Shown here: positions 731 through 60,031 of the stretch, piece after piece
How the letters are laid out: every line of letters begins with the position of its first letter
Numbering within the stretch: position 1 is the stretch's first letter
Source of the DNA: Sipunculus nudus
Lineage: Eukaryota; Annelida; Sipuncula; Golfingiida; Sipunculidae
NCBI GenBank assembly: GCA_026874595.1
Contig: CM049307.1
Coordinates: forward strand, 42,166,362-42,230,361
Direction: 5' to 3'
Length of the DNA stretch: 64,000 nt
The notes under the pieces: model-generated
Databases searched by the model: none
What the model was told of the DNA's origin: nothing
The model's input: the letters and a program-made list of their open reading frames with translations, nothing else
Program-made: the position numbers and the translations under genes

Positions 731-2348
731 GGAACTTATGTTGATTTAAACATTTCATTGCCGTAAGGGTTAAGAGTCAAACCAGAAAGAAGAGAACTTT
801 TACTGATGAAAACACCTGATTCTCATAAGAATCAGAGTCACGCAAAAAAAAAAAAGGAACCCTTACTTATAAAACACACTGTATCATAAATATATGAACT
901 GTTATTCACCTGTAAAGGATCAGTCAGTTCATATAGTGAGTATTGGTATTTATTGATGTAATAACATAAAAAGCTACATCATAATATCAAAAGGGAACTT
1001 TCTAGCAAAATAATTACCTCAAGACCTTTATCAGGAAATAATTATTTAGCTTTTATTCCTTTTAGAAAACAGGTAAACATGCAGCTGGGAATAATGTATA
1101 ATTTTCATAAGAAGTATATTAATCCTTGTTTTCTTGTCATGTTAATCATGTGATCATCAGAGTTATAATTTCTATCAGGTGTATTTGGCAAAAAAACAAT
1201 ATTGAAGGGTAGAGATATCATCTGGAGACACCTGCTAAATTAATCATCAGAGAGGTTTTATGTGTATTATGTCAGGCTACATCTTAGTATATCACGGTAC
1301 ATAGTACATGTACCTATGAATTGTGTATGATAGATCTGCATTTCATCAGCGTACCACTATATTTGTTTTAGTTGTTCTCACTGAGAAACCATGCTACAGT
1401 GTTTACCGGATGCACATCTGGTGATTTGGTAAAGGCAGCATCATGTTTACATTAGGCTATATAAGGAGTGTGCAAATTTTTCATTATTGGCAGGTATATC
1501 TTAATTTCATAGTTTTTAGGTCTTACGGTATTTTAAACCATATTAGAATTCACAGAATTGCTTTAATCATCGCTATTAACTTTTAAAGGTGTCTTGTTCC
1601 AGGATTATGAAATCTCATACCACAGTAAAATTCAAGGATAACCTCAGTTGTCAACATTAATTACAATAAATTTTATATTTCAGTTGTGTGTCAAATATCA
1701 TATTTCAGCCATTTCTTATTTTGGTAACCTCAATGTCCTTAAAAATAACAAAATCATGACCATTTTTGAATGTACAGGAATCCATTTTCATGGTGCCGCA
1801 GATTCATTCATATCTTTTGATCAGACAGACATGGTTAGATTGTGAGGCCATAACTAGCCATTTGTGTGACTGTCTGTGGTTATATATTTACTGATGCTGA
1901 TGCGATATGTTTTATTAATTCAGCTACATTAAAAAGATACCAATTCTTGCAATAACTAAAATAAATAAAATTTTATTTTTCCTAATAATAACCCTAAAAC
2001 TTCAATGTATAAAATCTTTTAAAATTTTTAATTATGTTAAAATTTTATTTTCTGATTCACTCTTTAAAAAAATTGTAAATGAATTATTTAAAATATTTTG
2101 ATGATCATGTAATTCAAATATTTTTGGATCAAGAACCAAGAGTTTAAACTTAATTTGTTTCGGAACATAACACTTTGTTTTATTAAGATTGAAAAATAAA
2201 TTATACTTGTGTGAATATATATATTCAATAAGCATACTGATGCAGCAGAGATTCATCTGTTCATGTGACGTATATTCAATTATGTATATATTTATGAAGA
2301 CAGTACCTGATCAGTATTTTACCTGAGATGATTTTCTCCTCATTACAG
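731..2348. other. Degenerate minisatellite edge, then AT-rich non-coding sequence
   Basis: About 731-870 holds decayed units of roughly 60 bp (AGAAAGAAGAGAACTTTTAC and ATCAGAGTCACGCAAAA recur). From 870 to 2348 I see nothing but AT-rich non-coding sequence, probably an intron in the 5' UTR. Confidence 0.6.
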
Positions 2349-2440
2349 GTGAGATGGGGTAGCCGAGGCCTGCAGCAGGAGCAGCAGTGCAAGCAGGAAC
2401 TGACAGCATTTGATAGCAGCCCAGGCTCCAAGTGTGCACC
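2349..2440 (+). other. 5' UTR part of the first coding exon, with a minimal upstream ORF
   Basis: A pyrimidine-rich tract ending CTCCTCATTACAG precedes 2349, so this exon looks spliced to a 5' UTR exon upstream of the window. The leader holds an in-frame TAG at 2414-2416, which rules out an N-terminal extension. It also holds a tiny upstream ORF, ATG GGG TAG, at 2354-2362. The acceptor is predicted by eye. Transcription could instead start within this region. Confidence 0.65.
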
Positions 2441-2500
2441 ATGAATGATATGGACAGACATATTCAACAGACTAACGATAGGCTTCAGTGTATAAAACAG
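2441..2500 (+). CDS. ZMIZ1: ZMIZ1-like exon 1 (residues 1-20)
   Basis: Encodes [20 protein letters not shown], nearly identical to the vertebrate ZMIZ1 N terminus (MNSMDRHIQQ...). The start is fixed by this match, by A at -3 of the ATG, and by the in-frame stop 27 nt upstream. The donor is CAG/GTCAGT and the exon ends in phase 0. Confidence 0.96.
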
Positions 2501-3258
2501 GTCAGTTCACACAACCCATGTAACAGCACTGATCTTATTACCTGCCTCTGTCCCTTGATCTTCTTTAGTTCTAGAGGATATATCCTATTCACAGCAAATG
2601 GTATATTATATTTTTATAGATGCACATGCCCTTACACATTCAGTTGCACTTTCTGGCTTACACTTGTCATTTAGTGCTAACAAAGCTTACAAAGTCCTGA
2701 TATGGACTGTGATGTGAGAATTTTTTTCCACCCCATGACTTGAAAAGAATGGGAGGAAAATGACTTACATAATTCAGGAAAATGGTGTTTCACAAATTTC
2801 TGTATAGGTTGTAAGTGCAATAGTGCAATGCTACATTGCACCATCTATCAGCTGTTTAGCTTTTGTTTTCAGAAATGCATTTGGAAATTGTACCTCCATT
2901 GTGTGCAACATGTTTTCTTATGTGGTCTCCCTTGAGTTACACTCCCAAAATTGTAAATACAATTTTTGGGACTCTCGTACATTGGAGATTAATTTAAGCC
3001 CCTTCTTCTTTGGTGTAGTACTCAACAATTAGAGGTAAGCCACAAAATGTGAAAAGTAGGTCTCATCAGGTTTATTGGTGTACTGTAAAAGGATTTACAG
3101 ATACAAACACATCTATCCCTCAAAATTTGATATTGGATTTTATCATTTTCATGTAGAAAAAGGTGGCTGTTATACTGAGGTGCCCATCAGTGTATATATG
3201 TTTATGTATATATTTCATTATAACCATGCTTTTTTTGACTATTGGATTTTAATATATA

Positions 3259-3307
<49 letters not shown>

Positions 3308-6300
3308 CAGAGAGAGTAAAAGAGAAAGATTATTCTTCAGGTGAAACATTTTTAGTATATGATTGTCACCTTCTCTGCCAGTAGGACATTTAACAGTCCT
3401 AATATTAGTAACAGTATATGTGTGATGCATGGTGTAGTAACAGCCCAAGGTTTGTGCACATGTATATTTATCAGTTGTCTGAGTAAAGTTATAAACTCAC
3501 CTGATAAAATCCACAGTTGTATAAGAAATGCCTGGGAGATCGATACTGCCACACATGTATATGACTGATGCTCACTTGTCAGTCTGACTTCAGTGATATT
3601 TATTAGTGACACATACCAGTTTGCTTGTAATTCATGTATGTTTACAAGTTGGCTGGTGTAACATTAACAGTATACTTCTTGGTAAAACATTGCCAATCAC
3701 TCCACGCCCACCTCCCTTGCCAAGCCAGCAATGACATCCACTTTCACATAATGTTTATTTGTTGTTTGTTATGTATTATAATAAAATGTGATTGAAACAT
3801 GGGTTTTGTGAACATTAAGATAATGCTTCATTCCCTGTGAGGATATTTAGGGTTTTAACATTTTAGTATTCTCCATTGTATCTGTATGCAAAAGCACTAG
3901 GGAATGTATTGTGTCACTTTGATGTCAATGCTTATCATTTTAAGAAGTTTTTTGTTCTGCCTAGTTAACTTTATAAAGTTAAACCAATCTCCCTTACTCC
4001 CTTTCCCATATAGAATGGTCATTCAGCTTTTTGACATTTGTTTTAAGAAATATAATATTTGCTTATTATTACTTCAGTTTGTGACAATAGCATTGATTAA
4101 AGCAGTAATTAGTGTTCCTTTTTCAATTATGTCTGTGTGGATTGATCCTGCTTTTCCCTGCATAGATTTGTTTGATCACAGTGTTTTCATTCACTTTGCT
4201 GGCACTCCTGTAGTGTGGTCTCTCAATTTGACATAATTGTAGTTCCTAGCAATAGGTTTAAGTGTATTTTATTGAGCCTGTTTCTTAACATATACCCTTT
4301 TTCAGTTAAGTTTAATTTGATGGAAAGCAAAAATGTCTTGTTAGGGATGAAAATTATTATTTAGAATATTTCAGTAGTCCTTTAAAGGTCTTTTAATGAA
4401 TATTTTTGTCAAGAGATGCAGATAGTTTTTTTTAATGAAAAATAAGTATATGTTATTATCTCAATTACTGACTTCTTCCAGTTTGTGCTGGGAATATGCA
4501 GCATTTAAACATTTTAGTGACAGATATATTTTCCTCACATTTTTCTTTTGCAGTTATAATAAGGTCACTATATGACCTTACTCCATAAAATGTCAGTCAG
4601 AATTAAGTACAATTCAATAAATACAGTAATAAACAGGAATTATGACGTGCAAGCTCAACATGAACATCCAGTTCAACTTTTATATGTTGCTTGGTAAGGA
4701 TCTAGTCCTGCATTGGAAATATTTGATCATTATTTAATGCACTGACTTGTGCAGTGTTCACAGGTGGGTGTGAATGTGTGGCAGTTAGAGCTGGTTATTT
4801 TCCATCATACAATTAGTGCTAACGGTGCGTCTCTCAACCTTGATCATTGGCTTCCTCAGGAGGGTATGCGTTCTTCCCAGTTTGGGCTTGTGTTGGTGTG
4901 TGTTCACATGAACAGAATCTGATGAAATTTTGAGGGAATTTGGAGAATAGGCAAATAAATCAGATTTTGGTGAAGAACATTATCAAGAAATATTCACAAA
5001 TGTACAGTCACTTATGCGTGAATGAACCTGGGAATATGGGTTAGTTTTATGGGTTGAAAAAGTGAATGCAAGGCCTGCATTCCTTAGAATGCAGATTACT
5101 AGTTCAATATTAAATTAATTACCTAACATTTAAGCACATTCTTGTATCTTTCTCTCTGTAGTCCAATGTGTATTTTCAGTGACACTCATTTTGTACTTAT
5201 CTTTCTAAATCATTCTGTAATTAACTCATTGATTTAACAGATACATTTACATAAGATATTTAATAAATGATCTTATGGGTTTTGTTTATTGCAGCATTTA
5301 ACTTCTTCAAATGGATTCCAAGGTGCAGCGAGAGAACTTCTAGACTGGTGCTCAGATCCTCGCGCATTCCAACCACCATTTGAACAGGGTTTAATTGGAT
5401 GTCTCACGGTAAGTACTTTTTTTCATAAATTTTGCTCTTTTTACACAAAAAACAGCTTTAAGACATCATGGGTGATACAAATAAAGTTTGTCTGTTACAA
5501 AACGTTTCATGCATTCCAGTAACTGGTTCTCTGGTGGAGCACTTGACTGCCAACCCATTCGCAGTCAGTACCATAATCATGATGCAACATGCCTACGTGA
5601 AGCATCCACACTAGTAGAATAGGTCTGAACCGTGTCACATGTTCACATGGCACTTAACCTAACAGTTTTAATTAATTAACACTGAAAATGTTTTAAAACC
5701 ACCTGTGGAGGATTCAAAATAGTTTGGTTAAAGCAGATTTGAAAATGTTTTGGATTATTGGCTAGACTCTCAACTCACATAAAAAAGGTATGTAAGCATT
5801 TGGCATTTTTGTTGTAAAAAGGGGTGTTAAAAAATAGAAATCCAGGTTTCCACAAATTGTAAAACCTTGCCAAGTTGTTTAGGTTTTGGTCTTTGGAGCT
5901 TCAGGTTCCCAGCTCAAACCCAGCCAACACATAAAAAACAAGGGAGCCATCAAATATGCTCCAATGCCTCAACACGTTTCGAGATCTTTATGGTGCTTAG
6001 CACATGTGATCTGTGAATTCTGTGTTGTCTGTTATTGATATGTCATCTTGATCATACATTTATTTTCATCTTCATTCAGTAGAAAATGCCACCTATAGGC
6101 CACAGACCTATCCAATGTAAAGTAAACAACCAGGACAGATCAATATAAAAAAATATATGTTTTTGTATTCTGTGCCTTACATGACAAAGGACAGATTTAG
6201 TCACCATCTCATGTCTCAGTTGGGACATAAACACATCAGGATGACTTGTGAAGGAGAAATATAGAAACAAACTTAATATGGAGCATCCTCCAAACAAATT

Positions 6301-27300: not shown

Positions 27301-30300
27301 TAACCATGGGAACACTGAATAATCATGATCTTTTTTTATTTTTACTTTTTCAGGTGAACAGCATATAGAAAAATATATATACTCATTTAACATGTTTCAA
27401 GATCATGCAGTTTTTTTTTTGTTTTATTAAGATTTTAAGTAGCAATTTGTGTGCATGTAAATGACAATTTATATCTTTTATAATTCAGTATTTGATTGTT
27501 CAAGTTTTAGCTTCACTGTTCGGTCCCCCTAAACACCCAAAACACCGGTGTTTTGGGTATCTGTGACGAAACACCACGAAACACCCACTTCACTTCGAAC
27601 CTGAACCAAAAACGTAACACCAATCGATAGATAATCATCTGAAGAATATATCTCTGCAATATTGTTTCATAAATTCATGTCATAAAGATAAAAAACGAGT
27701 GTTTCGTGTCGTGGTCGGTTCACCGGCGCCCACGGCAGCCGTTTATGCCAGCTATGAACCTGCCCCCTAGTGGCGCAAGTCGCAATCAAGCAGCGCACTT
27801 GTCAATTGTACAAAACACTATTGCTTTCTTTAATTTTACAGAAAAGTGGCACAAATTCTGTATAAACATATCCAACAGATGATGATTTATTAAATGATAC
27901 AAGTGTTTTGCTTCAAATTTGAATTTAAAAGGGTGTTTCATGGTGTTTCGTCACACGTACCCAAAACACCGGTGTTTTGGGTGTTTAGGCAGACCCTCAC
28001 TGTTTCCAGTTTCATCAGATTTCTTTTGCTTTAAAATGTAGTTCAAGAAGACATTATCAACAGAATGGAAGACTTGATTATAGTGAGACTGAATATATGA
28101 CACTTTGGACCTTGCTTGTTATGTGCAGTGTTTTATTGCAGGGTTTAATGTACAGCAACATGGTTTTGAATATGAGTCAAGTTGTTTGTGTTGGTCACCT
28201 TTGTCAGTGGCTTAGAGTCAACAAACAAAGATGTGCTTCAGTCTTGGACTTTGTACCATATTACTTACATGATTTATATACATATCAAAGGCACAACCAG
28301 GTAGATCCTCCACTGCCAACAGCGATAAACCCAATGGGTCATGGCTGCCATGCATACTGGGATGACAAGTTTAAGACTGTCGTTTTCTTTAATGCACACA
28401 CAGATTCAGGCATATCCTATCATGGATTTTTCAGCTGGTCAAATAAATTATGGATGATCAGAAAATGTTGATGATTGAAAAACTTTATATTTTATACCAT
28501 GAAAACAGTTATGAACTAAAATTTATTATTGAAGTACATGTAAAATATATGTTGATACATATTATATGTGTCAGCTAATTCACTTTCAAGTTCTACATAT
28601 AATTTCTTAAGGAAAAGGTATTTTTGCAATTGATTTATATTTTGTCTTTAACACACCATGTCTTATTTATGGTTTCAAAGGGAAGTTTACTATGGAAGGT
28701 GATATTTCTGATAATTATAAAATAACCTGTTTTTGAGCTGAAGAGGTTTGAATTTAATTCATACGTCTTTCACTGTGTCTGTCAGGTAGTGGTTGAATTT
28801 TAAATCACTCACAACATTTGGTTGAAAACCCAGGCACTTTCCCTGTCTGGTGTGCCAGTGTAATGAAGTGGCTGCCATTCTTAAGTAATTGGTCATGCCA
28901 AGTGTAAGGCGTCTGTATACAGGTGACACAAAAGCCTGGCTAGGAAGTGTACTGCTAAGTCACAGGGGTAAACATGCAGCTATTCTGAATATCAAAGTGT
29001 TGCACCAAGAACAAACACCCTGGATCGCTGGCCAGGCAGACCCCCACTACAGGTGATGGTGTCAGGCCCCTTGACATAGATAGGCACTGACCCCTGCATG
29101 GTACATTTTTGACCTCTCCTGGTAGTATTGTCACCAAGGCACACAGTACCCAAGGAGCATTTAATTACTCCAATTCATCTGAATCATTCCATGATGTCAG
29201 ATCAGGTGGTTCCTTTATTTGTGCATTTGCAATTATACTGCTGATTCAACTACTGAGTGACTGCTGAATAGCTCCATGAACAGTGTTATTTTTACTGAAA
29301 AGAAGAAACTATTTCTGCTTCCCATCAATGGATGAATTACAAGAGTACCAATATGAATTATGCAAAATGCAGCAAATGTTTAAGTTTGATTTAAGGTTCC
29401 ATTAGACTTACAATGCTGTATTTTGCTTCCCTCATGAAACTTAATGCCTCATATACAGTGCCATCTGTTGACCAAGAGGGAAACTAGGCAGCCCACCCGG
29501 TCCATCCTGATGTGACAAGACTTTACTTCTGATCTTGAAGGACAATATGAATTATAAAGATAAATGCAGTTTACAATGTAAGACCAATGATGCAAAATCT
29601 CAAATACCTTGAATAATTATTTTAGGTCAGATTATTTGGTGATAAATATTTTAGTATGATATCAGTCTTTATAATTTATATCTACACTGATGCCCTACTG
29701 GTAGACTGGTCTCTACACAGTTTTACCTTGATAGTGAGATGGGTGCCAGGCTATATCACCTAGGGATGTTGACAATGCATTGACCTTTTAGGCTGAACAG
29801 TATTGCTAAGACCAGAACTGTCAGACAGCAGTACTGTATTGAATTTTTCCGACTGTTTGATTGTCAGCAGGGCACCGAGCTGAATTGATTTCTGCATGGC
29901 TAAAGTGCCTGTGCTAATAGTCTTTGCTTATTTGCACACATTAGGCACAGCTGTTTTTATCTCTTGCAAGCTTAGGTAAAAATTTCAATTTAGCTAGGTA
30001 ATAACAGAAATGTGACCATGAATGCTTGCAACCCTAAATGTTTGACACAACTCTTTTAAGTAGTAAGTATCATGGTAATGCCTTGTCCCACGCTTTTTCC
30101 CTCCATTACATGGGCATTCAAGAGGACTGATAGCCAAAAAGTGGATGAGGCTGGCTTTCAAGGAAAGGAAGGAGAGCAGCTCCTACAAAATCTAGTAATT
30201 TTTTTTTTTTATATGAAAGTTGGCCATGAAATGCGAGGATCAGCTTTACCTGTGACATACCACAGCTCATATCCTCATGAAGATAAAGACGTACATAAGC

Positions 30301-33300
30301 TTCATCATCCCGTTACAAATCACAGGCTAAATCCTCACCAAGATTATGAAAGGGCAGAAGTCTCATCCGTCCTGGACATAGCACAATCCAAATCCTCCTC
30401 AAGATTATAACAGAAGCCTCAAAATTATGAAAGGGCAAACCTCATCTACCCTGGACATAACACAACCCAAATCCTCACTAGGATTAAGATAGGACAGAAG
30501 TCTCATCCACCCTGGACAACGCAGTCCAAAACCTCGCCAAAATTATGAAAGGATAAAACTCATCTACCCTGGACTAAACACAACCCAAATCCTCACCAGG
30601 ATTAAGATAGGACAGAAGTCTCATCCACCCTGGACAACACAGTCCAAAACCTCACCAAGATTATGAAAGGGCAAACCTCATCTACCCTGGACATAACACA
30701 ACCCAAATCCTCACCAGGATTAAGATAGGACAGAAGTCTCATCCACCCTGTACAACACAGTCCAAAACCTTACCAAGATTATGAAAGGACAAACCTCATC
30801 TACCCTGGACTTAACACAACCCAAATCCTCACCAGGATTAAGATAGGACAGAAGTCTCATCCACCCTGGACAACACAGTCCAAAACCTTACCAAGATTAT
30901 GAAAGGACAAACCTCATCTATCCTGGACTTAACACAACCCAAATCCTCACCAGGATTAAGATAGGACAGAAGTCTCATCCACCCTGGACAACACAGTCCA
31001 AAACCTCACCAAGATTATGAAAGGACAAACCTCATCTACCCTGGACTTAACACAACCCAAATCCTCACCAGGATTTAGATAGGACAGAAGTCTCATCCAC
31101 CCTGGACAACACAGTCCAAAACCTTACCAAGATTATGAAAGGACAAACCTCATCTACCCTGGACTTAACACAACCCAAATCTTCACCAGGATTAAGATAG
31201 GACAGAAGTCTCATCCACCCTGTACAACACAGTCCAAAACCTTACCAAGATTATGAAAGGACAAACCTCATCTACCCTGGACTTAACACAACCCAAATCC
31301 TCACCAGGATTAAGATAGGACAGAAGTCTCATCCACCCTGGACAACACAGTCCAAAACCTCACCAAGATTATGAAAGGACAAACCTCATCTACCCTGGAC
31401 TTAACACAACCCAAATCCTCACCAGGATTTAGATAGGACAGAAGTCTCATCCACCCTGGACAACACAGTCCAAAACCTTACCAAGATTATGAAAGGACAG
31501 ACCTCATCTACCCTGGACTTAACACAACCCGAATCCTCACCAGGATTAAGATAGGACAGAAGTCTCATCCACCCTGGACAACACAGTCCAAAACCTCACC
31601 AAGATTATGAAAGGACAAACCTCATCTACCCTGGACTTAACACAACCCAAATCCTCACCAGGATTAAGATAGGACAGAAGTCTCATCCACCCTGTACAAC
31701 ACAGTCCAAAACCTCACCAAGATTAAGAAAGGACAAACCTCATCTACCCTGGACTTAACACAACCCAAATCCTCACCAGGATTAAGATAGGACAGAAGTC
31801 TCATCCTCCCTGGATAGCACAGTCCAAAACCTCACCAAGATTATGAAAGGACAAACCTCATCTACCCTGGACTTAACACAACCCAAATCCTCACCAGGAT
31901 TAAGATGGGACAGAAGTCTCATCCACCCTGGACAACACAGTCCAAAACCTCACCAAGATTATGAAAGGACAAACCTCATCTACCCTGGACTTAACACAAC
32001 CCAAACCCCCACCAGGATTAAGATAGGACAGAAGTCTCATCCACCCTGGACAACACAGTCCAAAACCTCACCAAGATTATGAAAGGACAAACCTCATCTA
32101 CCCTGGACTTAACACAACCCAAATCCTAACCAGGATTAAGATAGGACAGAAGTCTCATCCACCCTGGACAACACAGTCCAAAACCTCACCAAGATTATGA
32201 AAGGACAAACCTCATCTACCCTGGACTTAACACAACCCAAATCCTCACCAGGATTTAGATAGGACAGAAGTCTCATCCACCCTGGACAACACAGTCCAAA
32301 ACCTCACCAAAATTATGAAAGGACAAACCTCATCTACCCTGGACTTAACACAACCCAAATCCTCACCAGGATTAAGATAGGACAGAAGTCTCATCCACCC
32401 TGTACAACACAGTCCAAAACCTCACCAAGATTAAGAAAGGACAAACCTCATCTACCCTGGACTTAACACAACCCAAATCCTCACCAGGATTAAGATAGGA
32501 CAGAAGTCTCATCCTCCCTGGATAGCACAGTCCAAAACCTCACCAAGATTATGAAAGGACAAACCTCATCTACCCTGGACTTAACACAACCCAAATCCTC
32601 ACCAGGATTAAGATGGGACAGAAGTCTCATCCACCCTGGACAACACAGTCCAAAACCTCACCAAGATTATGAAAGGACAAACCTCATCTACCCTGGACTT
32701 AACACAACCCAAACCCCCACCAGGATTAAGATAGGACAGAAGTCTCATCCACCCTGGACAACACAGTCCAAAACCTCACCAAGATTATGAAAGGACAAAC
32801 CTCATCTACCCTGGACTTAACACAACCCAAATCCTAACCAGGATTAAGATAGGACAGAAGTCTCATCCACCCTGGACAACACAGTCCAAAACCTCACCAA
32901 GATTATGAAAGGACAAACCTCATCTACCCTGGACTTAACACAACCCAAATCCTCACCAGGATTAAGATAGGACAGAAGCCTCATCCACCCTGTACATAGC
33001 ACAGTCCAAAACCTCACCAAAATTATGAAAGGACAAACATCATCTACCCTGGTCACAACCTAAATCTTCATTCAGATTTATGAAAGGTCAGAACACTTAT
33101 CTACCTGTGACATAGCACAACCCTTATCTTCATCCAGATTATGAAGTGACAGAAACCATATCTACTCCAGGACAAAGCTGCACCAATTGGTATAAGAAAA
33201 GTAAAATTAAGAAAATGTCGTAGTTGACAAAAACACAGTGAAAAATACAAAGCCATTTTTATGCTTTGCAAGTAGCAATGAAAAGTTTTATTAATGTACA

Positions 33301-45500: not shown

Positions 45501-48500
45501 TTTTCTTTCAACACATGTATTCACTTGTGATAAGTATTTGTGTGATGTGTTGGCATGAACCCAACTTTTTGTTGTTTTTTTTTTTTACCTGTCATTTGCA
45601 CCTGATCAAAACGTGTTCACCATCTGTTACTCACGTTATCAGTTTGTGGTTGAAATCCATATTCCTGATAAAATAAAACATTTATCAGTACAACCACCTG
45701 GCAGATCGGTGATCATTGATAAACTAGTGAAACGGGAGGTTCAGGTTTACCATACCCAGATATGATTTAATATAAAGGGTATAACTGTCTCCATTATTAC
45801 ATGTGCATGCCAAGATTAATCATATAAGTCTAAGTGCATGAACCAACTGTGAAATCATACAACACAACAAAGAGGGCTTGTAGATGCTCTAAGCTTTTGG
45901 GTTATATTGGCATGTATCAAGGCCAGTTGGTGTGGGCAGGGCTATTACCATATAAGGGCGTTGATACTGCCTCTGTGCACAAGACTGATATTTATGGCCT
46001 CAGGAGATGGTATGTTTGTTGTACTGCAGTCAGGCTGATCACATAGTAGGTTACCTCCATGATTGTGAAGGTCAGGTATTGGGAGTAACACTGGGGATTT
46101 GAGGGTATAGCACTGCAGCTTTGAGAGTATAACACAACACAGGGTTTGAGAGTATAACACTGTGGGTTGGAAAGTATATCCCTGACTTCAGATTATAGCA
46201 CTGGGTTTGAGACTTGTATAGTATTATACCAGGGGTTAGTGGGAACACACATGACTTAACATTATAAACATTAGGAGGGTTTAAGAGAAGAATACTTCAG
46301 ATTTCAGAGCATGACATATAAGCCTTGAGAGTACAACATAGGGCCAGCATGCATGTACTATTAAATCATTCAAAAATGATTTTTTTGCACAAGAGGGATG
46401 TGGTCAGATTTGTCTTGCCTTATGAAGGGATGTTGACCCATCTCAGGTGTTTGATAATTGTATCCAAAAGGCATTGTATATATAAGTGAATAGAGGTGAT
46501 TCTCATAATTTTTCAGGCTATTATTATTGATAATTTGGTATTTGTTTGTGGAATACTTCACAGTACACTCCTTGCATTTCTTTATACATTTCTCTCTTTA
46601 CCATTGTTTCAGAGCTCCAGTTTCTACAATTCTTTATTGAAATAATCATTTCAAACTTACATTTACTGACATTTTATCAGTCCCCTTAGTATTCTTCTAG
46701 TGAATTGCCTATCATCAAGCAAGGATAAACATTGGGAACACTTCTAAAGGTATTTTATTATTTCAGGTTTCTTATGATTTTAGGTGAAGAAGAGGATGAA
46801 ATTACTGAGAGCCACTTAATAGTCAACATTGAACAAACCATAAATATTAATTTCTATTATAATGTTGATATATAGATAATAATTACATTCATGATGATGT
46901 TGGTATTAGCATAAAGATATTGATGTAGAAGTGTTTCCTGTCTTTGTAGCTATGCTGTCAGTCTGGAGTGAAGATCTTGGTCGTTTACTTTTACTGAGAC
47001 ACCAGAAGAACAGAACACCGCCAGACCCCAACAAACCAGGGATGAATATGCAAGGGATGCCCGGGCTACCGCCCATGCAAAATAACATGAACAAGTTCCC
47101 ACCAGTTCCAGGGTGAGTACAGTCATACCAGGATTCTGCAGTCAGCTCAGCCTGCAAACACTACACTTGTTGCACCTATACACAGCATGCCATCTGTATC
47201 ATGATCTATGTCAGTCTTAACACCTGCATCTGTATCTTGATCCCTGCTAGTCACTTAACTGCCATCTGTATCATGAACCCTGTTAGTCATCCCACTGCAA
47301 TCTGAATCATGATCCTTGCTTGTCACACCACTGCCATATGTATCATGATCCCTGTCAGTTCATCAACCTGCATCTGTATCATGATCCCTGCTAGTCACAT
47401 CACTGCAATCTGTATTATGATCCCTTTCAGTCACACCATTGCCATCTGTATCATGATCCGTCAGTCACACCACTGCTATCTGTACCATGATCCCTGCCAG
47501 TCACATTACTGCCATCTGTATCATTAACCCTGCTAGTCACACCACTGCCATCTGCATCATGATCCCTGCTAGTCACACTACTGTAATCTGTGTCATGATC
47601 CCTGCCAGTCACACCACTGCCATCTGTATCATGAATCTTGTCCGTCACACTACTGCAATCTGTGTCATGATCCTTGCTTGTCACACCACTGCAATGTGTC
47701 ATGATCCCTCTCAGTCACACCACTGCCATCTGTATCATGATCCCTGCCAGTCCTACCACTGCCATCTGTATCATGATCCCTGCCAGTCACACCAGTGCCA
47801 TCTGTATCATGATCCATGCCAATCACACCACCAATATTTGTATCATTAACCTCGAACATATGACTTGGTATGCATTTATATTAGACTGGTAAATCCTACC
47901 TGGGTCATGACACCAGCCGTATGAGGGAAATGCACTGCAGAGGCCATCCATCCTGATGCTTAGATTAACTTGGTAATCAATTGATAATTTTAACATTAGG
48001 CTACGAGTGATGAATTAACATAAGATAATACATGTGAACTCAAAAATTAAACTGAAAATCCATCACTATGGTAATCAGTTATTTCCTGGGTCACATAAAA
48101 GTTATCTGTCTTCCAGTCACCCCATGCTTGTATTCATGTGGTCAAAAATTCAACAAACATGCTTGGGATTGCCAATATGAATATGCTGAGTTCAAACAGG
48201 AGGTAGGTGTTGTTAGAACATGTACCAAATAAGCTAATGATTCATCTGGCTTATGTCAAGTAAACATCCTACCTGTAGGCCTTGAGGCATTGTAAAACAA
48301 TAGTAAAAATATTTGCAACCTCATCATGTGCAATCTATGACACAAGATGTTATGGTATTCTGAAGCTGGTCTAAGACTCTTATTTCAGAGCGCAAAAATT
48401 GCCCTACCGTATCATGACCTCTCTCAGTCTCAGTACATACATATATCAAGATTGCTCCCACCATCATCATCTACCAGATTTCCTGCACAGTCATTCTCTG

Positions 48501-55800: not shown

Positions 55801-58800
55801 TTAATTGGTAATTCACTTGATTCTGTGGCAAAATTATCTCAGTTATTGCCTGCACCTGTAAATTAATTTGTCTTGGTAAATTTGCATATCTAATGTATAA
55901 GAATATATCCACAGATGCCGAACCAACAGTATAACCCCCAGTATACCCAGCAGAGGGCGCCGGGCCCCATGATGCCTATGGGACCAGGAGGAATGCCCCA
56001 GGGACCAGGACCAGGATCAGGTCAAGGTCCGATGCAGGGTCCAGGACCAGTCCCTGGCAGAATGCCCTCGTACGGACCACACAGGCGACCCACACCCTAC
56101 CCTACCAACCCTAAACAGTACATAAACCAACCGCGCATCAATGGGGCGCAACCCCAGGTAAAGACAGCAAGAGTGAGGACCTGTTTTTTATACTCCACTA
56201 ACTGACAGCCGCGTCACTGTCTCAGATTCTGTACTAACATTTCGATTATCTTGGAACTTCACTGTTTTACCTCCCTGAGTCCCTCTGTATTTTGTTTCCT
56301 GAAAAATAAAGCCTTAAAAATGAATTATGGGCATTGGAAGTACAACTCACTATGGCATTAAAAATTATATCAGCCTTCAGTTAAATCTGTGATATACTGT
56401 TAAATATTAAAATTAAATTATCCTTCAGTTTATAATGCATTTGAGAATTTATGAAATTATTAAATTTTTTGTAATAACAACCTTAAGTTCAGTCCCTGGA
56501 CTCTAGATGGGCCACAGTCATGTACTTAACAATATAATTTAAATGTGACCATATAGTAGAGAAGTAGCTTATCATGAAAATTTTAAATGTATCTTCAACT
56601 TTAAGAATTACTTTGATGACTTAACTGGATGTAATTGTAGTTGTTATAGTGGTCATATGTGTTGTTCAGGCACTGTATAAGTTGTAATTTCCGTTAACAT
56701 GGCACATTGTTTCACTGTTGTAAACTTCTGGTGACTTATCCTACCTGCCGATGTTCAGCATTTGACCTTATTTGTCAAGTGTGATTTTCACATATTAACA
56801 TTAGTACATTACAGTATTCTTTCCCCTTATAGTACATTTTAATTCAGTACTTCCAAGTTGCCTTACATCACAATGATTATAAACTGCTCCATATTCAGAG
56901 TATGTATGATTTATGTTATATTTGTATGGTATAAATTAACATAAATATATTAATATTTTCAGTATGGACCAGGTCAGCAGTTTGGGCCAAACGGAGGGCC
57001 ATATGCAAATAAACCCCAGTACCCACCCAATCAGCAACCACTGCCATCACCAACGTACCCAGGACCAGGCCCTCAGCCTGGCCAACAACGGCCGCAAGGC
57101 CCCCCTTATGCCAATGGCCAAAATCCTTACCTGGGATACATGCCACGGCAGCCAGGGCCACCCCCAGGCCCGAACCCAGCAGCCTACAACTCACAGTTTC
57201 CTCCTGAGAGACCACCAAGCATGGTGAGACTGCTTTACTTTATTATTATGATTTTATTATGATTTTAAATGTCTCTGTATGCTATGTTTGTAGGTACAGG
57301 CACACTATTATACAATTTCATCACAGTGCACCAAACTCGGAATGTGTAATAGGATATAAATTGCCCAAAGACAGTGGAGGAGACCACTCAGTCTAAGAAC
57401 ATATCTCATAGCAAACCTCAGCATCATACAGTTTTGTAATCATTTGCATCTTTTGGGAAAGTCCTAAAACCATAGAAAATTAGGTCAGTGTGTACTCAGA
57501 TTTGTGCGAGGTAAGGTTGATAGGTATCCAGTACTGTTAAAAGTGGTTTTCAGGTTGTATACACTGGTGTTGGATCCATCCAGTTCGCAAGTATACACTT
57601 ATGAGTCAGTAAATGATACAAAGCACTTTAGTATTGTAAAATTAACGAGTTTTCAGGTCTTTTGTTAATGTTTAAAAGTGATGTCTAAAGATTACATGAT
57701 GTTCTTCATATTTTTTACAGTATAATCCCACCTCGCCGATTCCTGGCAACCCTACTCCGCCCATGACCCCTGGCAGCAGCGTACCTCCCTACTTGCCACC
57801 AGGGGGTGACATGAAGCCTGCCATACCACCTGACATAAAGCCTCTGATTCCGAAGCCGGATGATGAGATGAGGCTGACATTCCCCGTAAGAGACGGAACC
57901 GTGCTGCAGCCCTTCCGACTGGAGCACAACCTCGCAGTCAGCAACCATGCCTTCCACTTGCGGGACAACATCTACCAGACGTTAGTTTGGAGGTAATGAT
58001 ATCATAATAGGATCTGAGCTGAGGTCACTTGGTGCAGTGCAAAACAAAAATTTCTCTCTCCTTTATTTGGTGAAATTCCTCTTTGAGCTAAACTGTTTGG
58101 TGCGTTAAAAAAAAATCCAGAGAAAAGAAACCATCTGAACTTTCTGAAGACCCAAGATGATTGAAATTTCTTCTGAAATGGATATTTGGAAAATTTTGAT
58201 TGAAGCAATTAATGAGAAGTGAATGAATGAAGAACAGTGGCCTTGAAAGGTTCCTCATGTGATACCCAGTAGCCTTCCCTGCTCCAGTATTTCATGTTTA
58301 TAATATGTCTCACTATTAACCCATTGTGTGTATGAGCACCAGCAAGGGGCTATGAAATGTCTTCATATCACATGCTGAACTAGTCACTCTTGTATATTAC
58401 ACTATTGATGTTATCAGGTCTGCTAACTTAAATATGTACTGTTGTTGTTGTACAGAAACATTGAATGTAACTTTCAGGAACTACATACCTTTAACCACAA
58501 TAAACTTGGTATTTGCTCTGTAATGCTTATACATCGATAGTTGTAAAGCATGGGTTGTGCTTGTTTCTTAACTGTGATCTTATTTACTAAAACAGATGTT
58601 TACAAAAGGACAAGTCTTACTTTGGATCTTTCCTGTGTTCTTGGTAAAGCTTGGCTCCTTTGTACAAAGTCTATATTCACCTGTTTTCCTAATGATAGGT
58701 GTCCCAGCTGCTTTTTCATTACAATGATTGGTTCTTGTCCAACAGGTCAGATTTGGAACTGCAGCTGAAATGTTTCCATCACGAAGACCGACAAATGAAC

Positions 58801-60031
58801 ACAAACTGGCCAGCCTCAGTAACAGTCAGCGTGAATGCGACCCCCTTGTCAATACAACGTGGTGAGAACAAAACGTCTCACAAACCTTTGTATCTCAAGG
58901 AAGTGTGTTGTCCTGGCCGCAACACGCTGCAAATAACAGTCACCGCCTGCTGCTGTGTAAGTTACCTTGCATATTTATTTAAACTGGTTGGGATTTGTGA
59001 GGGGGTTAATACACTCCTTACGCAGTGGTTATATACTGCAGTCGTTCCCGCCATATCTCCTTAGTTGAAACTGCTGCGTTGTTTAGCAAGTTTTTCAGGG
59101 TCTAGACACCAGGGCTAGGGCATAGCCCAGATTCAGACCAATGAGAGCGCATTGTCATAGGTTTCAAGCTTGGGAGTTGGATGCACAATGAGATACTTTG
59201 CTGTCGTTTGTCTGATTGCAATTCTTTGTCCTGTATCAGCCTTGGTGGTTAAACCGGAGAATCTTGCTTTACAAAGCCAGATTAAATCAAATAAGATATA
59301 GAATGACTTCAATGTGTAACCACTTGGTCAGGAGTGTAGGGGGTTAAGTGCATAACAAAGTATAAAAATGTCATGTATTCACTCAAGTTAAATTAAGTTT
59401 TAAATTTTTGTTCAGAAGTAAATATGGTCATCCAAACATACATGTTTAGGTTTCAACTTCTGTTAAAATTGCCATGTTTGACAGTCACATAAAAAACAGA
59501 CCTACCAACTTGCAAGAACAAACTTAAGCAAATATTGGAAAAGTACTGACTTTAAATCATGTACCAGACTGATCATGTTTCGGAACAAAATATGATGACA
59601 TCAGGTGACAATGGCATTATTAATTTGTGTTTTTTGTTTCAGTCCCATTTGTTTGTGCTACAACTGGTCCATCGACCGAGCGTCCGATCTGTGTTACAAG
59701 GTCTCCTAAGAAAACGTCTCTTACCAGCAGACCACTGTATAGCCAAAAGTAGGCACTTTTTTACCATTCTGAAATGTAAAATTGAAATATTAAATGTCTC
59801 AGATAATTTTCATCAGAATTTAATATTGATAAGTCATCACAGCCACTGCTACTTCTAATGCTGAAATAAGAATCACACCAATTTTAAAATTAATTTACAG
59901 AAATGTGTATTTATGTTATTTAAAACGGATTAATAATAAGGTGATCTCTCGAATAGATTATCTGGTGGAATTCAGGAAATTTTCAGAGTAATCAGGTGTT
60001 TCTACTTGGCAGGAATTCAAGGTTATGTCTT

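Follow-up and report, generated by a model that had tools for sequence, protein, structure and literature searches.

The window, that is, the whole stretch of 64,000 nucleotides of Sipunculus nudus DNA that was analysed, contains, at about 57.7-59.9 kb (57700-59860) on the + strand, exons of a ZMIZ1/ZMIZ2-type gene; three matches support them, the last of which scored below the family cut-off. A short non-autonomous DNA transposon (MITE), the parts of which are listed in Table 1, precedes the first domain-matched exon by about 30 kb. A tandem array of 118-bp units (30420-33052; 22.3 copies, 96%) starts 2.4 kb from the MITE, and further arrays were seen at 1-729 and 47181-47831, with units of 95 bp and of 36 bp (250 bp).

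Table 1 Features of the MITE copy (window positions)
Feature	Position	Strand
MITE copy (non-autonomous DNA transposon), 476 bp, differing from the 40-row consensus at 6 positions	27521..27996	+
Left target site duplication TCACTGTT	27513..27520	.
Right target site duplication TCACTGTT	27997..28004	.
Left outer terminal inverted repeat, 66 nt, mismatched to the right arm at 6 positions	27521..27586	+
Right outer terminal inverted repeat, 66 nt	27931..27996	-
Left inverted repeat, inner diverged part, 29/76 mismatched	27587..27662	+
Right inverted repeat, inner diverged part	27855..27930	-
Left 24-bp perfect palindrome	27535..27558	.
Right 24-bp perfect palindrome	27959..27982	.
AAACACC copy 1, left	27531..27537	+
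AAACACC copy 2, left half of left palindrome	27540..27546	+
AAACACC copy 3, inverted, right half of left palindrome	27547..27553	-
AAACACC copy 4, left	27569..27575	+
AAACACC copy 5, left	27579..27585	+
AAACACC copy, right end	27932..27938	-
AAACACC copy, right end	27942..27948	-
AAACACC copy, half of right palindrome	27964..27970	+
AAACACC copy, other half of right palindrome	27971..27977	-
AAACACC copy, right end	27980..27986	-

The arms of the window copy pair as an inverted repeat over 142 nt (76%), and their mismatches lie mainly in the inner part (6 across the outer 66 nt, 29 across nt 67-142). The initial annotation had described a MITE-like element with the same perfect 24-bp palindrome in both terminal inverted repeats (TIRs) and with intact 8-bp target duplications; for the window copy both statements were confirmed, the palindrome reading ACCCAAAACACCGGTGTTTTGGGT at each end and the same flank TCACTGTT standing on both sides. 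AT repeats aside, these two were the only perfect palindromes with arms of at least 12 in the 64-kb window, and 40 first-order Markov windows gave 0 such palindromes, the longest arm being 11. No start-codon frame of at least 80 aa was found inside the element, and a single stop-to-stop frame of at least 70 aa touched it, only across its last 8 bases. A search of Rfam returned 0 matches.

Each outer end carries the heptamer AAACACC five times. Counted from the left terminus, the copies begin at nt 11, 20, 27 (inverted), 49 and 59, and the right end is symmetric to the left. Copies 2 and 3 stand head to head and make up the palindrome. The motif occurs 10 times in the 476-bp element as against 14 times in the remaining 63.5 kb of the window, and at least five copies of any one 7-mer were present in 44 of 5000 Markov-shuffled ends. 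When the two arms of the window copy were compared, mismatches affected 0 of 35 motif columns but 6 of 31 other outer-end columns (p 0.008, a post hoc comparison).

A search of the organism's own 1.43-Gb genome, as the initial annotation had proposed, revealed a multi-copy family. The best 40 of 793 candidate places were scored as copies (92-100%), and the exact 31-bp end CCTAAACACCCAAAACACCGGTGTTTTGGGT occurred 123 times in the genome, its reversed control 0 times. Apart from the window copy, all scored copies (39) were read, along with 20 more loci that have the exact end, and all of these 20 shared the MITE interior; the family comprises at least dozens of copies in the genome. Being multi-copy and short, with terminal inverted repeats, target duplications and no coding capacity seen, the stretch 27521-27996 is a MITE. 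Divergence of the family from its consensus is moderate, with a mean of 2.6% in 33 end-intact copies (a best-hit sample). None of the 6 positions at which the window copy differs from the consensus falls within the palindromes, and the arms of the consensus itself differ at 4 positions in the outer 66 nt and at 28 in nt 67-142. The consensus termini read CGGTCCC...CGGACCC; among 53 elements, 40 began with CGG and one with GGG, and 51 ended with ACCC. Two very short elements contain little beyond the two ends, one of 109 bp (L086, 788-896) and one with its end patterns 108 bp apart (G000:C15:42782609-42782751). Among the papers listed by our literature search, none dealt with this MITE family, and those matched by the letters of the end were unrelated by title. 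Patterns of 22 and 28 bases for the palindrome had 0 matches among prokaryotes and viruses, and another end pattern had 0 in the genome_contigs collection; shorter end patterns matched five viral contigs, which were rejected as chance, the match stopping at 19-21 bases.

Exact target duplications flanked 35 of the 53 two-ended elements and measured 8 bp in 21, 9 bp in 13 and 10 bp in one. One-mismatch duplications were present in 7 of the other 18, and none were found in 11; these 11 include two copies with rearranged ends, L031 and L045, whose duplications were seen by eye to be intact outside the rearrangements. As a control, flanks of different elements were paired, and 0 of 2756 pairings matched over at least 7 bp. 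Thus, the target duplications themselves were supported, while the 8-bp rule of the initial annotation gives way to a mixture of 8 and 9 bp.

The mixture of 8 and 9 (10) bp is compatible with a Mutator-like or a Merlin element and fits hAT or Zisupton less well. We favour a Mutator-like element (MULE), probably of the Phantom type, because the mixed duplications are combined with repeat-bearing ends and with CGGT...ACCC termini as in Tm1. Target duplications of Mutator-like elements are described as 8-11 bp (PMC6446971), those of Tm1 as 8-10 bp, a range that covers all exact duplications found here. The 142-nt arms with 66 well-kept nucleotides and five AAACACC copies per end correspond to long TIRs with internal repeats, and the Phantom-like termini were compared against those of one family, Tm1. 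According to the description in PMC3169594, Tm1 is a Phantom-type MULE/Foldback family of root-knot nematodes with mostly MITE-like copies and repeated motifs inside the TIRs, and its asymmetric termini (CGGTTAA...CCTACCC) resemble those of the MITE consensus. Its motif C is a 14-bp tandem repeat of variable number (PMC3169594), whereas the motif of the MITE is 7 bp long, occurs five times in each end of the consensus and is partly inverted into a palindrome. Muta1, an active Phantom-type MULE of Aedes aegypti, is reported with 145-bp TIRs, a palindromic terminal motif, subterminal repeats, duplications of 8 or 9 bp and more than 300 putative non-autonomous derivatives (PMC5225508). The palindrome given there for Muta1 is 10 bp long, imperfect and terminal, while that of the MITE is 24 bp long, perfect and located 14 bp inside the end; the Muta1 derivatives are described as varying in their interior (PMC5225508), unlike the 20 of 20 further MITE end loci with a common interior.

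MULE domains are common in the genome (131 matches). When all 131 were compared with the 93 listed end or copy places, none lay within 7 kb, the nearest being 7.2 kb away (L039). One abundant MULE that was read (L103) had no MITE-type end within 4.4 kb and no inverted repeat of its own there. At this locus (G000:C10) a frame for a FLYWCH+MULE transposase extends over 967-2766 (+), and a C-type lectin frame lies next to it at 3265-4365 (-). PMC12265568 gave no passage on a FLYWCH motif. About 43 of the 131 MULE matches have a 607-aa frame, a pattern that a recent burst would produce.

An autonomous relative with the same termini, which the initial annotation had envisaged, was not found: among the 93 listed end or copy places compared and the loci read, no transposase-bearing partner with these ends turned up. 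Two candidates with widely spaced ends were rejected. Ends bounding 2.96 kb (L083; C4:18711043/18713956) belong to a copy with two nested insertions, and those bounding 4.87 kb (L087) to a copy that has a single nested insertion. When position 67 of the end pattern was changed, the pattern occurred at 4 places, including one known copy.

Membership of the Merlin superfamily (IS1016/IS1595-type transposase), as a MITE with long ends, is an unlikely reading. Merlin elements are described with TIRs of 24-462 bp, duplications of 8 or 9 bp and ends beginning 5'-GG (PMC8101967). The long TIRs and the duplications of 8-9 bp of the MITE agree with this, as do its GG-rich ends, the right ends reading GGG inward; the expectation of GG at both ends (PMC8101967), however, is at odds with the left end, which is mostly CGG (40 of 53, with GGG in one). 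The genome contains 150 IS1595-domain matches, and one of these lies 1.8 kb beyond a MITE copy (L040). This copy has its own closed 8-bp duplication, which makes the neighbouring Merlin frame a separate insertion, and no other place among the 93 listed ends or copies came within 135 kb of any of the 110 matches (of 150) that were compared. Some IS1595-domain matches, moreover, are located on small contigs that are perhaps bacterial. The small contigs C101-C138 (G000), which are possibly bacterial, carry many IS1595-family transposase frames at identical scores.

Assignment to another superfamily with duplications of about 8 bp, i.e. hAT, P, KDZ/Zisupton or an undescribed one, is likewise unlikely. 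Zisupton duplications are given as 8 bp and those of hAT as usually 8 bp (PMC12730594), the length seen in 21 of the 35 exact duplications of the MITE, but 13 of the 35 were of 9 bp and one of 10 bp. P-type (34 matches) and KDZ (9 matches) transposase domains are present in the genome. Nevertheless, when 28 P and 8 KDZ matches were compared with 96 end places, none lay within 44 kb; the nearest P match compared was 359 kb away and the nearest KDZ match 45 kb. The lengths of 8, 9 and 10 bp occur side by side in this family, and we know of no such mixture in hAT, P or KDZ/Zisupton elements.

The initial annotation took the perfect palindromes, set among TIR bases that differ between the arms, as a hint of constraint or conversion. 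The palindrome is far from conserved in all copies: among the 33 end-intact copies used for palindrome statistics (7 of the 40 rows were dropped), it was intact at the left end in 21, at the right end in 21 and at both in just 15. One copy scored as changed at the left (L023) reads the full 24-mer with an adjacent insertion, so that 22, 21 and 16 are perhaps fairer counts. At non-CpG bases, the palindromes differed from the consensus at 17 of 1450 bases and the remaining outer end at 20 of 2178, compared with 134 of 4807 in nt 67-142 and 118 of 5554 in the middle. Per base, the palindromes diverged less than the remainder of the element as a whole (p 0.011), but not significantly so per site, and the rest of the outer end shares this low divergence. 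Counts of variable sites likewise gave no significant difference between palindrome and other outer-end sites.

Per base, non-CpG divergence in the outer 66 bp was 2-3 times lower than inside, but per site this was not significant (private variants p 0.11, shared variants p 1.0), and in all 40 rows, truncated copies included, the sign was opposite and the ends were more variable. As to a greater conservation of the outer 66 bp than of the interior, our report rests on neither the per-base nor the all-row comparison. None of the 22 changed palindromes listed carried a compensating change. The palindrome thus belongs to an end that is somewhat conserved and shows no sign of added constraint as a fold: palindromes diverge like their end neighbours, and none of the 22 was compensated. 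The arm difference cited as a hint (GTATCTG against GTACGTG) dissolves as well; differences at positions 1, 7, 40 and 41 are present in the family consensus, and the asymmetry is therefore ancestral.

That frequent gene conversion holds the palindrome identical at both ends is very unlikely. Left and right end types stay distinct, their ancestral differences persist and exchange between ends is rare: of the 116 end rows scored, in which one end appears twice, 20 had a mixed diagnostic column, and 12 of these 20 involve a recurrent variant at position 71, alone or together with another. Routine conversion of the palindrome is not supported by these rows. There is one clear exchange between ends, in L031, and L094 and L098 are possible exchanges at position 7. 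Changes at the CCGG centre of the palindrome (gaps counted) occurred at both ends in 4 copies, only at the left in 3, only at the right in 3 and at neither in 23. This co-occurrence, in 4 of 10 changed copies, speaks for conversion (p 0.023, one of several tests), but the co-occurring changes are mostly at a CpG. Occasional conversion between ends is possible.

In L031 (G000:C8:75699707-75700419, about 12-120), the 9-bp duplication CCTCGTTAT is kept on both sides, and about 95 bp of the right flank recur inverted in the left end, with a right-type terminus after them. L045 (G000:C2:66872627-66873329, about 551-632) has an extra inverted end with palindrome at one side and an intact duplication, CACCAAGGG. 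Both are consistent with template switching between or within ends via the shared end or the palindrome, and both are possibly assembly artefacts. Since the breakpoint of L031 lies in a stretch identical at both ends, the palindrome and plain end homology are indistinguishable as the route in this copy. We tentatively suggest, as a rather unlikely course of events, that repair synthesis at an excised or broken copy may switch ends and turn round at the palindrome, leaving foldback ends and captured flanks as in L031 and L045; such switching would be possible because the palindrome reads the same inward and outward and matches that of the other end. If this were true, a simple MITE could become a Foldback-type element through end-switching repair.

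Retention of the palindrome as a DNA hairpin or cruciform serving mobilisation is highly improbable: the single-stranded 24-mer is predicted to form a 10-bp hairpin (-9.0 kcal/mol; 1 of 200 shuffles as good) and fold-back or a template switch would explain the rearranged ends of L031 and L045, but the whole 66-nt ends gain little over shuffled sequences, of which 15 and 19 of 200 folded equally well, the palindromes are as variable as other outer-end bases, 0 of the 22 changed ones listed are compensated, and ordinary target duplications indicate double-strand cut-and-paste.

The AAACACC array likely represents putative transposase-binding sites with one dyad. The palindrome would then most likely be a pair of head-to-head transposase binding motifs in an end of an ordinary kind, and the dimeric transposase site already suggested for it gains support from this pairing. 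The explanation that we consider best, with somewhat better than even confidence, is that of a cut-and-paste MITE, most likely of a Phantom-type MULE, that is moved in trans and has binding-array ends; the Mutator-like affiliation taken by itself is probable to a similar degree. The outer 66-bp end would be the recognition unit. Of its five AAACACC copies, four share one direction and form two pairs, stepped by 9 and 10 bp; the fifth is inverted and together with its neighbour yields the palindrome. The DNA-binding domains of the transposase would occupy the array, with a dimer on the palindrome, and the bound protein would draw both ends together. The duplications of 8-9 bp would result from a staggered cut in the target, and the enzyme itself would be encoded elsewhere, mobilising the MITE in trans by cut-and-paste. 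The nearest experimental parallel for such a binding-array mechanism is Galileo, a member of the P superfamily for which footprinting and gel shift are reported to have located several binding sites of the transposase domain in long TIRs (PMC3688188). Galileo differs in that these are sites of a THAP domain, and in its superfamily (PMC3688188).

For the host genome, the MITE is an ordinary repeat. Its end is unusual but understandable and does not define a new kind of element; it probably belongs to a Phantom-type MULE. The odd double palindrome can be recast as a testable end architecture, namely a motif array with one head-to-head pair. If a partner transposase is found, the family would offer an animal MULE-type system for testing directly what a palindromic end motif, such as Muta1 also has, is for.
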